Both the position numbers and the translations under genes were made by a program. Below the pieces are notes generated by a model, which was not told the DNA's origin, did not search any database, and worked only from the letters and a program-made list of their open reading frames with translations. Positions 4,785 to 49,149 of a stretch of DNA of 64,000 nt are shown piece by piece (positions within the stretch are counted from its first letter, which is position 1; every line of letters begins with the position of its first letter). Location: positions 186,001-250,000 of the forward strand of contig NZ_JALLPK010000002.1 of assembly GCF_023276375.1 (NCBI RefSeq), given 5' to 3'. This DNA is from Halocatena marina (GTDB taxonomy: Archaea; Halobacteriota; Halobacteria; Halobacteriales; Haloarculaceae).

Positions 4785-5034
4785 CAATTCCGTCATGGCA
4801 AAATTGCTCGGCTTGTATTTAATTCCACAATTATTACTGGGATGGAAGAGGCAGCCATGTACCCGGCAAAATGCACCGAGTGTATTGGAAAGACAGCAAC
4901 AGACCTATTTTTCGAAGTTGTGATACACGCTCGATATCAGGTGGCTGTGATCATCGGGCCAGATATGCGTGTTCATTTACTGATGCTCTCAACACGTTCA
5001 GCAATTTATCGTTCTGTTTTATGATCCGGCTTCA
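4785..5034. other. Intergenic stretch before duplicated 5' block
   Basis: Short frames at 4842-5074 lack any recognisable protein character. The region leads into the duplicated promoter block that begins near 5035. Confidence 0.4.
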
Positions 5035-5188
5035 GTTGTATCGAGAGATGAGTTTAGCAAATAGCCCAGAATAGTGAACTTCTGAGACGGTGGCGTCGGT
5101 GAATCCCCGTGAAAACGCTCGCACGACGATTACAATCGATACACCCGGCCAGAAAACCTATTATGTGCTTGTTGAATTGGTGCTTATG
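5035..5188 (+). repeat. Duplicated 5' flank, copy 1 (pairs with 7817-7969)
   Basis: About 150 bases upstream of the first PGF-CTERM gene, similar to the same stretch upstream of the second one. Shared blocks include GAGACGGT, CGAAAACGC-like and AAAACCTATTATG stretches. The similarity stops at the ATG at 5186, so the leader and promoter were copied but the reading frame was not. This is read by eye; percent identity was not computed. Confidence 0.8.
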
Positions 5189-6796
5189 AAACAACAAGAT
5201 CCGTCAGCCAGACGTGGCAAATGTATTGGCCGGCGGATATTTCTCGCAGGAATGACTGCCGGAGTAGTTGGTCTCGGTTCACTTCATTCACCCTCGATTA
5301 AAGATGCCCTCGCACAGTCGACTTCATCTCAGACCGTTGGTTGGCCGCAGTATCGGGCCAACAGCAGTCGATCGGGTGTCGTTGCGGATCGACACGTCCC
5401 GACATCGAACGTCACGCCGAAATGGCCGCTGAAGAAGCAGAACGTTGGGCAACCAGTCGCTGATGAGGACACGATTTATCTGACGAGCGAAACGCTCACC
5501 CGCGAAAATCCACAGCTACAGGCTATTTCTCGTGCGGATGGTTCAGTTCGCTGGCAAACAGGTCTTACCGATGATACCCTGGCGAGTAGCCGATCCATCC
5601 CTCCGGCCGTTATCGATGGGACGGTTTATTTTAGTAATGGAACACGAACCCGTGCGTTCGACGCCGAAACCGGAACGGAGCAATGGAACAGTCCTCATGG
5701 CGGGACCTGGCTCGTGGTTTCGAACGGTCGGCTCTATCTCCAAGGCGCCAACAATGCATTCGTTACACTGGATAGTTCCGATGGGTCAGTCGTATGGGAG
5801 GGTCTCAGCGGTGTGAACGATAAGTTTCTCACGTGGAAACACGCAGTTGCTGACGAGACTCTCTACGTAGGGCTAATAGAGCGATCCGGGGATGCACCAT
5901 CGGAAGTCCGAGCGCTCGACAGTACGACGGGCGATTCCCAGTGGAAAACCACAATCGATGCTGATTATCCGGAGATAGCTGCAACGAAGCAGGGAGTGAT
6001 CGTTGCCACTAATACTGTCTTGTATTCATTGGATCCAGCCTCTGGCACGGTTCGTTGGCAGCAACAGGGCGGCCCACTCGATCGAGGAGAGGCTCGTTAC
6101 GTATCCACGCCTGTGATTCACGAGGATATGGTGTATGCAGCGGTCGACGGCACATTCTTCGCGTTTAATATTGAGACAGGAACGAAGCAATGGACAACAG
6201 ATGGGGTCTCTGAGACAACCCTTGTCGGGGATCGTCTCTATGGCTTGCGTGGATCGACTCTTGTCGGTCTTGACGTCACGACTGGCCAGCAACAGACCGA
6301 GTATCGGTATTCTGGTGATGGACGAATCGATACGTTCGTTCCACTGGACGGGATGCTCCTCGCCAGATTGTATCGGAAATTCGATGGTTATCGAGAGTTT
6401 CCCATCCCAGGGTGGCCCCTCCTCGTTTTGTCGGAAGATGAGTCTAGGTCCACCGAGGACGACGATTCGGATGCTACTGACGAAGCGACCGAAACACAGA
6501 CACAAACGCCCACGAGCACGCCCTCCGAGCCGACACTACACATCAGAACGGAGACGGCAACGCAAACGACGCCAACTTCGACCCGCACGGATCCTCATAC
6601 ACAGACAACCACGTCATCCCAGACGACATCTACTTTGACCCAATCGACCTCGACTGAAGCAGCGACCACAACGGCATCCGCAGAGCGTACACCATCAGCC
6701 GAGAACCCGACCACGACTGACGGCCCCGGCTTCGGTGTGTTGTCCACTCTTGCAGCTGCCGGTGTCGGGCTGTGGGGCTATCGCCGCCGCGAGTAA
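5186..6796 (+). CDS. Tat-exported PQQ-like beta-propeller protein with PGF-CTERM
   Basis: Cell-surface protein of 536 residues. The ATG at 5186 is chosen because it gives a twin-arginine signal (GRRIFLAGMTAGVVGL). Residues about 50-410 hold repeated blades of the form DGSVRW, TGTEQW, SGTVRWQ and TGTKQW, the signature of a PQQ-binding-like (quinoprotein-type) eight-bladed propeller; whether it binds PQQ is unknown. A Thr/Ser/Gln-rich stalk, likely glycosylated, runs from about 425 to 510. The tail TDGPGFGVLSTLAAAGVGLW then RRR is a PGF-CTERM signal, processed by archaeosortase A with lipid attachment in haloarchaea. The stalk, tail and 3' flank are shared with the gene at 8032. Confidence 0.9.
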   Translation: MKQQDPSARRGKCIGRRIFLAGMTAGVVGLGSLHSPSIKDALAQSTSSQTVGWPQYRANSSRSGVVADRHVPTSNVTPKWPLKKQNVGQPVADEDTIYLTSETLTRENPQLQAISRADGSVRWQTGLTDDTLASSRSIPPAVIDGTVYFSNGTRTRAFDAETGTEQWNSPHGGTWLVVSNGRLYLQGANNAFVTLDSSDGSVVWEGLSGVNDKFLTWKHAVADETLYVGLIERSGDAPSEVRALDSTTGDSQWKTTIDADYPEIAATKQGVIVATNTVLYSLDPASGTVRWQQQGGPLDRGEARYVSTPVIHEDMVYAAVDGTFFAFNIETGTKQWTTDGVSETTLVGDRLYGLRGSTLVGLDVTTGQQQTEYRYSGDGRIDTFVPLDGMLLARLYRKFDGYREFPIPGWPLLVLSEDESRSTEDDDSDATDEATETQTQTPTSTPSEPTLHIRTETATQTTPTSTRTDPHTQTTTSSQTTSTLTQSTSTEAATTTASAERTPSAENPTTTDGPGFGVLSTLAAAGVGLWGYRRRE

Positions 6797-45925: not shown

Positions 45926-46864
45926 CTAGTGATCCCTATCAGTGCAGTATCGAGCAAGTGTCGTCAAGCGACGTCGTTGGGGTGAGTCAGGTAGCGTCGA
46001 TAGGACAGCTATTGCTTCAAAAGCAAGGCTGTGCATTTGCTGGCGAGCATATGTGAAACTTCCAGATTCTTCAAAGATGGTCTGGACAGTTCTGACATCT
46101 TCGTCGGTCGTATCCCGAGCTGGCTTGTCAAGGATATCATAGACCTGTGCATCATCAGCGTGTATGGCTAAGAGGGTACGCTTGCCTGCTCGTACATCTC
46201 CACCAATTGCTGAGCGGCCCTTTCCAGCTTCGAAATCGAGTAGATCATCACGAATCTGAAACGCAGGCCACAACGCTCCATAACCATCGATGCTCAAGTC
46301 AATCGCTGTCAGCGTTTGTGGTAGCTTTAGACAACAATCGAACAGTGCTCCTGTTTTCTTTCGAACCATCTCCATATATTCGCTCTCAGAGACTCCCCGT
46401 CGATCGGTCAACGCGAAATCAAGTTGCTGACCAACAGTCATCGTCCGAACCGACTCGGCAGCGATTGATCTTGCTCCGTCAGGGAACAGTGTAAGTGCGT
46501 GGGAAAGGAGCATATCGCCAATATTCACTGCTGCATCTGTTCCGTATTCGACCCAGAACGCGGGGGCGTTCCGACGTAGTTGATCCCCGTCGACGAGATC
46601 ATCATGAACGAGCGAGAAGGTATGGAGCAACTCGACTCCTGCTGCACAATCGAGCAAGCGACGGTCATCGCATTCACACAGCTTCCCAACGAGCATGACT
46701 AATCCGGGTCGAAGACGTTTGCCGCCCGACTGTATCTGATACCACAGTTGTTCGTAATGGCGCTGACTCTGGAGTGAACGCTCGATATGGTCATCGACCG
46801 CTGGTTGGACCTCCTGGGTGAGCCACGTGTTGAAGTCAGAGTGATCAGTTGAAGGAGTAGACAT
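45926..46864 (-). CDS. Short-chain trans-prenyl diphosphate synthase
   Basis: A 312-residue prenyltransferase that joins isopentenyl diphosphate to allylic diphosphates. SGGKRLRPG (46-54) binds the diphosphate; the first Asp-rich motif is DDLVD (88-92) and the second DDLLD (206-210). Five residues before the first motif stands Phe83, a bulky residue that in known enzymes limits the product to C15-C20. It lies six bases downstream of the terpene synthase gene in one operon, so its job is most likely to supply that enzyme with FPP, GGPP or a similar substrate and not general archaeal lipid synthesis. Confidence 0.93.
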   Translation of the reverse strand: MSTPSTDHSDFNTWLTQEVQPAVDDHIERSLQSQRHYEQLWYQIQSGGKRLRPGLVMLVGKLCECDDRRLLDCAAGVELLHTFSLVHDDLVDGDQLRRNAPAFWVEYGTDAAVNIGDMLLSHALTLFPDGARSIAAESVRTMTVGQQLDFALTDRRGVSESEYMEMVRKKTGALFDCCLKLPQTLTAIDLSIDGYGALWPAFQIRDDLLDFEAGKGRSAIGGDVRAGKRTLLAIHADDAQVYDILDKPARDTTDEDVRTVQTIFEESGSFTYARQQMHSLAFEAIAVLSTLPDSPQRRRLTTLARYCTDRDH

Positions 46865-46870
46865 GGATGA

Positions 46871-48310
46871 CTAAGCTGAGGGTGAATACCGTGACGATTC
46901 ATTGATCCATTTTAGCTGGCCCTGTGTCCATCGCTTAATCGCTGTTTGGTGGTTTGTGAGTGTGTTGTCTTCGCCGGAGCTAGCCGTAAGCCGCTCACCA
47001 AGTGCTTCAAGTCGATGCATTTCAGCGTCGATAAGCTCACGAACTTCGGTGATAGCTGCCTGAAGCGAACAACGTTGATCGTGTCGTACCACCACAACGA
47101 AGTTGTTCACCTCTTTGTGTTCTAATTCTCTCTGAAGTGAGTAGACATCGTTAGTCCATCCGACGACATTGGCTGCTGCCTCATGGAAGGCCATGACAGG
47201 ACCGTTCTGATAGTCTGCATGAGACAGGTACACATCGTTAGCAAGTTCAACTAAATCGAACGAAGGAAACATGCCACCAGTGAGCCGCCGTTTTTGAATA
47301 TAGGTAGAACGATCGGGAATTTGATTGGTGGCACGGTTATGTGCTTCCCACTGGTGTGCAGCAAGAGAATCGTGATGATGGTGGGCGAAGCGCTCTTGCC
47401 ACACCGATGGTGCTCGGGCTATTACTCGGTTCCAAATATCTGCGAATGCTCGTACCATCGGCTCGTCATGGGATTGTTGTTGGTCTTGTTCGAATACTTC
47501 GAGTAGCGGCTGCTGGAAATGATCCATATTCGAAGGATCTGCTCCTCGTTCAGTTGTATCGAAGTAGTCATCGAGATGAAATGCTAGACTATACCAATCA
47601 CTGCAGACGCAGAGTGCATCCTGTGAAGCGTGTGGATGAGAGAGACAGGCAAGACGTGGCAGGTCGGCAAGTCCTGATGACGGATCAGCTATCTCCGGTA
47701 TTCCCGCTTGTTGTGCCCAATCGCGGGTGTGCGACGTAACCGCCTCAAGATGCGGACTCATAGCGTTTGGAAACGAAGATGTTATCTCAGGAATATCGAC
47801 ACTAGCCATAGCTGCCGGCGGGGGCTGCTGTTCGCTGAGCGATTGTAAATCTGTAAGAATTGTGTTGAGTTGAGTTTTGATCATCGTCTCGATAGTCGAT
47901 GGTGACACAACGCCAGCTCCATCTGCTTCGATCCCGACCTCTGCAACGACAGCTTCGATAGATTGTGGCGGCAACGTTGAAGTGATTGTTACGGTGACTA
48001 GTGTGCTGCCGTCGCGAGGTTGGAGGCTCCACTCGGCCGACCCTTGGATCGTTCCACTGAAGACAATAGTTAGTGCCGTTGGCTTTTCCGTTTCCGTCAC
48101 CTGAAACTGGACATCAAACGAAACAGGTGGCTCGCTCTCTGCCCCCCCTGTGCAGGTAACCCGTGTCCCCTCCCCTGTTGTTACGACAGTTGTCTCAGGG
48201 TAGGTATCTAGTAGAGCATTCAGCTCTGTGAGAAGGGTGAAGATGTCGGCCGGAGAAGCGTCGATTGAGATTTCTTGACTGATTGTTGTTGTATCGATCT
48301 CTGGTGTCAT
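46871..48310 (-). CDS. SRPBCC-terpene synthase fusion
   Basis: A 479-residue protein of two parts. Residues about 8-155 resemble an SRPBCC/CoxG-like hydrophobic-ligand domain (ISIDASPADIFTLLTELNAL, then GSAEWSLQPRDGSTLVTVTI). Residues about 165-479 form a class I terpene synthase: Asp-rich metal motif DDYFD (247-251), NSE triad NDVYSLQRE (387-395), the diphosphate-sensing Arg341, 46 residues before the triad, and the C-terminal R474-Y475 pair. All residues needed for ionising a prenyl diphosphate are present. Terpene synthases are rare in archaea and I know of no described fusion of this sort. ATG at 48310; AT-rich promoter upstream. Confidence 0.9.
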   Translation of the reverse strand: MTPEIDTTTISQEISIDASPADIFTLLTELNALLDTYPETTVVTTGEGTRVTCTGGAESEPPVSFDVQFQVTETEKPTALTIVFSGTIQGSAEWSLQPRDGSTLVTVTITSTLPPQSIEAVVAEVGIEADGAGVVSPSTIETMIKTQLNTILTDLQSLSEQQPPPAAMASVDIPEITSSFPNAMSPHLEAVTSHTRDWAQQAGIPEIADPSSGLADLPRLACLSHPHASQDALCVCSDWYSLAFHLDDYFDTTERGADPSNMDHFQQPLLEVFEQDQQQSHDEPMVRAFADIWNRVIARAPSVWQERFAHHHHDSLAAHQWEAHNRATNQIPDRSTYIQKRRLTGGMFPSFDLVELANDVYLSHADYQNGPVMAFHEAAANVVGWTNDVYSLQRELEHKEVNNFVVVVRHDQRCSLQAAITEVRELIDAEMHRLEALGERLTASSGEDNTLTNHQTAIKRWTQGQLKWINESSRYSPSA

Positions 48311-48789
48311 GGGTGCTCTTTATAGATTATTCGATGATTTTGTTCATTAACTCAGTTTAATCTTTAAACATATAGAATTGGTATTTTTAAATCACATAAT
48401 TATCTATCTATTTTTTGTATATTTTAATCTTTACTAGATCAGAATTTAATGTATTATATTGATTAATTATTATATATTGTAAAAGGATATAATAGTATGT
48501 ATTGCGGTTGAAACGGTTGAGTACCGACAACATGGGTTGGTGATAGCTATTAATTTTCAGATCTCTCTACCTAGTGATATCCATCGAGTATCTCACAAAG
48601 GACTGAAGTAGGAACAATGCAGCAATTTCGTGCTTGTTTATAGCAGAATAGATGGACATTCACACTCTGACCAATTCACTCATAAGTTGATGATTTTAGT
48701 ATGTGAATACACTATCACTCATAGAATGGAACAAATCGTCATATGATGGTGCGAGATCATTAAGTGCAATACTATCATTGCCAAATAGT
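48311..48789. other. AT-rich divergent control region
   Basis: About 480 bases between the terpene operon and the PadR gene, strikingly A/T-rich at 48340-48500 against the surrounding DNA. Several TATA-like runs are present, including TTTAAAAATA (minus strand) some 85 bases before the terpene synthase ATG. It should hold both promoters and any PadR operator. Confidence 0.5.
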
Positions 48790-49149
48790 ATGTCGACAAC
48801 AGTGTCGGAGACAAGTGAATTCGGTATTGCACCAGAATTATCCGCGTTCCAACAGCAAATTCTCACAGTTCTCGCGGAGAAGCCCCGCTATGGGCTGGCG
48901 ATCAAGCGCGAACTAGACGCCTACTACGACGAGGACATTAATCACGGGCGGCTCTACCAGAATCTTAGTACTCTCGTTGAGTTGGGCCTCGTCGAAAAGA
49001 GCGCACGCGATCAACGGACGAACGAGTATACGCTAACCAAGGCGGGCCACGATACGATTGCCACCCAACTGTCGTGGGTCTTCTCACGGTTTGTCACCGA
49101 CGAGGATCGCGCGACGGAACTCGAAACCCTCGTCGATGATGCTCGCTGA
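48790..49149 (+). CDS. PadR-family transcription regulator
   Basis: A 119-residue winged-helix regulator: LSAFQQQILTVLAEKPRYGL, then YDEDINHGRLYQNLSTLVEL and GLVEKSARDQRTNEYTLTKA with the beta wing. The ATG at 48790 (MSTTVSETSEF) is chosen over the one at 48703, whose extra residues are not family-like. PadR proteins usually repress a neighbouring operon and respond to a small molecule. Divergent from the terpene operon, it is the obvious candidate regulator. Confidence 0.9.
   Translation: MSTTVSETSEFGIAPELSAFQQQILTVLAEKPRYGLAIKRELDAYYDEDINHGRLYQNLSTLVELGLVEKSARDQRTNEYTLTKAGHDTIATQLSWVFSRFVTDEDRATELETLVDDAR

Follow-up and report, generated by a model that had tools for sequence, protein, structure and literature searches.

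An adjacent pair of haloarchaeal genes, one of which appears to encode a terpene synthase fused to a domain of a ligand-binding superfamily, raises the question of whether the archaeon possesses a terpenoid pathway of its own and what the additional domain does in it. The pair lies on the minus strand of the window (the whole stretch of 64,000 nucleotides that was analysed), to which all coordinates below refer unless otherwise noted. The first gene (46871..48310) encodes a 479-aa SRPBCC-terpene synthase fusion, which is defined by an open reading frame with both Pfam domains in one frame and by five further intact full-length homologues, and its first ATG agrees with the N-termini of these homologues. 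The downstream gene (45926..46864) encodes a 312-aa short-chain trans-polyprenyl diphosphate synthase, and adjacent orthologues in three other pairs are 66-70% identical to it. A gap of only six bases (46865..46870) separates the two genes, which suggests that they are carried on one transcript. A reading made earlier from the sequence alone (the sequence-only reading) had described two genes six bases apart for a prenyl diphosphate synthase and a class I terpene synthase, and the coordinates, strand, gap, and Pfam matches agree with it. We consider it probable that the pair constitutes a plasmid-borne, two-gene terpenoid pathway in which the SRPBCC domain holds the product.

The pair is located on a 456,686-base contig of a 5.3-Mb haloarchaeal genome, and the contig matches plasmids of Halocatena marina. 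Two complete H. marina plasmids (473 and 475 kb) share the pair, with protein identities of 99.4% for the synthase and 100% for the prenyltransferase, which rules out an assembly artefact or contamination (the contamination estimate of the genome is 9). Moreover, the fusion recurs in independent genomes with approximately 40-55% identity over the whole length and is thus neither a chance arrangement nor an assembly join. RefSeq labels the two products on the H. marina plasmids as "SRPBCC family protein" and "polyprenyl synthetase family protein," and nothing more specific. A viral origin was rejected because no relative was present in viral contigs. We also rejected the assignment of the proteins as Family 2 encapsulin cargo, as the NCBIfam scores were 165 bits (terpene cyclase) and 156 bits (polyprenyl transferase) against cut-offs of 1200 and 450, respectively, and no encapsulin shell gene was found among the annotated features within 20 kb in H. 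marina. A divergent gene on the plus strand (48790..49149 with the RefSeq start; the longest open reading frame begins at 48703) encodes a PadR-family protein (PF03551, E = 2e-16), which is also annotated as PadR in H. marina. It is a possible candidate regulator of the pair; a role as a conserved regulator was rejected because no PadR gene adjoins the fusion copies in other genomes.

The synthase half of the fusion spans residues 179-476 (46883..47776). A terpene synthase profile search, proposed in the sequence-only reading, matched Terpene_syn_C_2 (PF19086) at residues 238-433 with an E-value of 6.6e-46, and a PDB sequence search identified the bacterial enzymes 9m25 and 9hqd. The DDYFD metal-binding motif (residues 247-251; 47558..47572), whose DDxxD pattern is found in all six copies, is accompanied by the NSE triad NDVYSLQRE (residues 387-395; 47126..47152), which fits (N/D)Dxx(S/T)xxxE, by the diphosphate sensor Arg341 (47288..47290) exactly 46 residues ahead of N387, and by the C-terminal RY pair (residues 474-475; 46886..46891). 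Every one of these residues, as listed in the earlier reading, was found in the translation and the alignment. D247, D248, D251, R341, N387, S391, E395, and R474 are invariant across the six full-length homologues, and Y475 is replaced by F in one of them. In an AlphaFold2 model of the whole fusion built from the six homologues (mean pLDDT 72), the synthase half has values of mostly 80-94 and adopts the all-alpha class I fold; Foldseek aligned it to solved bacterial terpene synthases with TM-scores of 0.84-0.92, including 0.90, normalized to the target, for T-muurolol synthase. NCBIfam matches of the fusion were almost all sesquiterpene or other terpene cyclases, with scores far under the equivalog cut-offs. 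These comparisons support the assignment of this half as a bacterial-type class I terpene synthase that retains all catalytic motifs; the enzyme is predicted to be active.

By sequence, the synthase domain appears nearest to bacterial enzymes. It shares the fold, DDxxD, NSE, Arg sensor, and RY pair with T-muurolol synthase of Roseiflexus castenholzii (9hqd) and a Streptomyces type I diterpene synthase (9m25), but it is archaeal, is only approximately 30% identical to them, and carries the N-terminal SRPBCC domain. In a phylogenetic tree, the synthase domains of the fusions formed one fully supported clade (100/99), separate from the bacterial synthases included. The nearest Streptomyces cyclases, also approximately 30% identical to the window synthase, are encoded in plasmid operons of the order P450 - terpene cyclase - polyprenyl synthetase (S. 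durmitorensis, Streptomyces sp. NBC_00557, and WA1-19). The cyclase gene directly precedes the polyprenyl synthetase gene as in the window, whereas the Streptomyces cyclases have no SRPBCC domain, their operons include a P450 gene, and the prenyltransferases encoded there are only distantly related to the haloarchaeal enzyme.

The prenyltransferase matches polyprenyl_synt (PF00348, E = 8e-44) and has both aspartate-rich motifs, DDLVD (D88-D92; 46589..46603) and DDLLD (residues 206-210; 46235..46249). Phe83 (46616-46618), which the earlier reading had singled out, lies five residues before D88 of the first motif. Phe at this position is compatible with a C15 or C20 chain, although the residue alone is not decisive; the host's short-chain enzyme L001 also has Phe there, and the host's other two enzymes have Ala or Gly. 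The prenyltransferase tree placed the enzyme among haloarchaeal paralogues, one of which is on the chromosome of the same organism (52% identity), and apart from the Streptomyces enzymes encoded beside related cyclases. The partner therefore looks native, and its co-transfer with the cyclase from Streptomyces is unsupported.

Residues 1-159 (47834..48310) were assigned to an SRPBCC domain. The suggestion that the first 155 or so residues resemble this family held, as Polyketide_cyc2 (PF10604, SRPBCC family) matched residues 8-127 with E = 1.4e-8 and 35.5 bits, above the gathering score of 27.4, a cut-off that some of the fusion homologues do not reach. The AlphaFold2 model of residues 1-165 has a beta-alpha-beta6-alpha arrangement: a strand (7-16), a helix (20-29), six strands (40-112), and a long C-terminal helix (137-161). 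We read this as the helix-grip fold (beta-alpha2-beta6-alpha); the model confidence is modest (pLDDT 59) because just six sequences were available, and the structural matches are consistent with the fold. Foldseek returned 199 PDB matches at E<=1e-3 for these residues, and among the best 50, all recognisably named ones were SRPBCC, START, Bet v 1, CoxG, or PYL-type proteins. A prediction lacking the helix-grip fold had been named as evidence against the sequence-only reading, and it did not materialise. The domain has its architecture in common with the SRPBCC/START/Bet v 1 ligand-binding superfamily, e.g., Maqu_3174 (PDB 3p9v), CoxG, PYL abscisic-acid receptors, and ZhuI, and differs from these members in being joined to a terpene synthase. 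The joint is a linker (residues 160-178; 47777..47833) with a conserved EQxxPPA motif in the alignment and low pLDDT at residues 158-170.

Five further intact full-length fusions are encoded by Actinarchaeum halophilum YIM 93972 (two), Halobacteriales archaeon YIM A00010 (one, 55% identity), and Natrialba taiwanensis (two). Family-specific peptide patterns, which would overlook very distant fusions, retrieved four loci from 84,980 species genomes, all of them haloarchaeal. As the earlier reading had proposed looking for, both the fusion and the gene pair occur in other haloarchaea, namely A. halophilum and YIM A00010, and the fusion also occurs in N. taiwanensis. The pair is present once in YIM A00010 and twice on a plasmid of A. 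halophilum, where two divergently transcribed synthase-prenyltransferase pairs share one locus. In N. taiwanensis, one fusion gene is followed by a broken prenyltransferase gene, with insertion sequences as neighbours, and the other lies approximately 1.6 kb from a cytochrome P450 gene (L019:534-1688, minus strand), which encodes a candidate tailoring enzyme. Within the genus of the window, the protein was found in four of seven genomes, with one copy split, and the gene was absent from the other three; the full-length fusion was found in one of 386 other Halobacteria genomes, that of N. taiwanensis. The corresponding Fisher p-value, 1.8e-7 (8e-6 without the window's own genome), gauges restriction to a lineage and not a link to a trait, since members of a genus are not independent. 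The fusion is also missing from one genome of the same species. In the split version (L079:1489-2910, minus strand, genome G392), an in-frame TAG at the linker, with an ATG three codons later, separates SRPBCC and terpene synthase reading frames, and no prenyltransferase gene is adjacent. Either this copy is in decay or the fusion can be dispensed with in some genomes.

The pair is under purifying selection, judging from substitution patterns: dN was lower than dS in all between-species comparisons with estimable dS. Intact prenyltransferases are 66-77% identical, whereas the synthase domains are 39-56% identical, which indicates that the cyclase diversifies faster. A different pattern was found within the fusion gene, for which a sliding identity profile was also used. 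Between A. halophilum copy 1 and both N. taiwanensis copies, 70-80% of four-fold sites are kept in the SRPBCC segment (dS 0.42-0.57), in contrast to 35-48% in the synthase segment (dS of 1.3 or more, or saturated), with p = 5e-5 to 2e-3 for the contrast. No such contrast was observed in the control pair of H. marina and YIM A00010 (p = 0.56). Because selection at the protein level is not expected to produce a contrast at silent sites, the most likely history is one in which the synthase segments diverged first and exchange or homogenisation of the SRPBCC segment followed. Judged by silent sites, the SRPBCC half of three copies is much younger than the cyclase half, and the two halves have thus most likely recombined. 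High identity on either side of the cyclase in A. halophilum copy 1 versus N. taiwanensis copy 1 could be read as a swapped cassette, an alternative that was rejected because saturation at four-fold sites is as high in the intact prenyltransferases as in the cyclase; the recent exchange is seen in the SRPBCC segment only and not in the prenyltransferase. The contrast between the domains provides a specific example of how terpene synthases recombine as modules.

A prenyltransferase followed by a synthase is the standard order of a terpenoid pathway. In the pathway that we propose, the prenyltransferase would condense IPP and DMAPP into an all-trans prenyl diphosphate, probably C15 (FPP) or C20 (GGPP). 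Haloarchaea already make GGPP for their lipids, and a dedicated prenyltransferase may therefore mean FPP or simply extra flux. In the next step, DDYFD and NSE would bind the Mg2+ with which the synthase domain ionises the prenyl diphosphate before cyclising it. The fused SRPBCC domain would most likely receive and hold the hydrophobic product or a released intermediate and hand it to the membrane or to tailoring enzymes, and it probably has no second catalytic site. The invariant residues of this domain (SIDAxxAD..., P77, T78, and W94) appear structural, and no obvious conserved catalytic set is seen in the six sequences; this speaks, with little certainty, for a holding rather than a catalytic role.

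Three other explanations bear on this proposal. The SRPBCC domain may merely stabilise or oligomerise the synthase in high salt and leave the terpene untouched, as might be expected from the variable segment that joins its strands to the last helix and from the split, possibly still functional, version in G392. We regard this as unlikely, though the strongest of the three, because a pure stabiliser would hardly be expected to have a helix-grip fold with a ligand cavity and because genomes of two haloarchaeal families retain the domain, with silent-site signs of recent exchange. It is improbable that the domain is instead a second catalytic site that rearranges, hydrates, or further cyclises the product in the manner of the ZhuI aromatase/cyclase or norcoclaurine synthase. 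Both enzymes are among its Foldseek matches, the Pfam family is named Polyketide_cyc2, the fusion is kept in six intact proteins, and six sequences are too small a sample to argue conclusively against a catalytic pocket; most matches in the same Foldseek list, however, are binding proteins (PR-10, PYL, and CoxG), and the invariant positions are mostly fold-related, with no conserved polar catalytic set evident. It is likewise improbable that the locus is plasmid cargo in decay that now has little function: the patchy distribution, the absence from a same-species genome, and the insertion sequences, broken prenyltransferase, and split copy described above are outweighed by the two intact frames in the window, the invariant catalytic residues, silent divergence far above replacement divergence between species, and the near-identity of the pair in two further H. 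marina plasmids. We retain, as the most likely, the reading in which the SRPBCC domain holds the terpene.

The sequence-only reading had also stated that terpene cyclases are rare in archaea. This is true of the fused bacterial-type kind but not of class I-like enzymes in general, since the Terpene_syn_C_2 cut-off was passed in 51 of 391 Halobacteria genomes. Nearly all of these are accounted for by a second, unfused family of approximately 330 aa with DDxx(E/D/N) and NWxx(S/T)xxxE motifs and a weak Terpene_syn_C_2 match (L025-L051, L066:9853-10821, L067:9483-10793, and L017:8097-9212), whose wide occurrence indicates that class I-like enzymes are not rare in haloarchaea. Both motifs are kept in all 27 loci checked, with DDxxE and NWxxTWERE near-invariant, and an NCBIfam search of the family gave no match and no name. 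One member is encoded 0.8 kb upstream of the YIM A00010 fusion gene in a divergent orientation.

The claim that no fusion of a terpene synthase with this domain had been described stands within the open-access papers searched, in which we found neither "archaeal terpene synthase" or similar phrases nor a pairing of SRPBCC with terpene synthase. Automatic annotation gives haloarchaeal "terpene clusters" (PMC8600319), and according to a 2023 survey, only halocin and bacterioruberin clusters of archaea were confidently linked to a secondary metabolite (PMC10105419). YIM 93972 and YIM A00010 have been described as haloarchaea that form hyphae and spores (Tang et al. 2023, PMC10067837), and the main text of that report does not mention terpenes. 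One may hypothesise a developmental role for the terpene pair, with the caveats that three genomes of the genus have no such gene and that N. taiwanensis falls outside the clade. It is distinctly unlikely, in our estimation, that hypha- and spore-forming haloarchaea independently evolved actinomycete-like terpenoids by means of SRPBCC-equipped cyclases, diversified through SRPBCC-catalytic recombination, with products serving development or signalling. The locus nevertheless offers a compact, intact predicted pathway to a cyclic terpene, with a domain architecture for which we found no report, in a lineage that includes hypha- and spore-forming archaea, and the fusion points to unexplored archaeal natural-product chemistry that is directly testable.

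Several neighbouring observations were made in passing. Prenyltransferases of the same clade as that of the window (51-52% identical) occur in clusters of the order UbiA - prenyltransferase - MMPL - squalene-hopene-cyclase-like on the organism's own chromosome (L062:8251-15659; C1 at ~1.495 Mb, ~1,494,250-1,501,658; 52% to the window's enzyme) and on a Halorussus caseinilyticus plasmid (L052:7062-14230). Unlike the window pair, these clusters encode terpenoid enzymes of other kinds, among which no class I synthase was seen, and they look like another terpenoid pathway. In another genus, a same-clade prenyltransferase is adjoined by proteins of 432 aa (L065:8450-9748, no Pfam match) and 418 aa (L064:10891-12147) with an LDD(V/L)DDYADD stretch, possibly an unrecognised isoprenoid enzyme. 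Near the terpene pairs on the Actinarchaeum plasmid are a prenylcysteine-lyase-like flavoprotein gene (PF07156, E = 6e-57) and, beside it, the apparent remains of a third prenyltransferase (L014:5688-7037 and 4840-5665), and a LanM lanthipeptide synthetase is encoded on the other side of the pairs.
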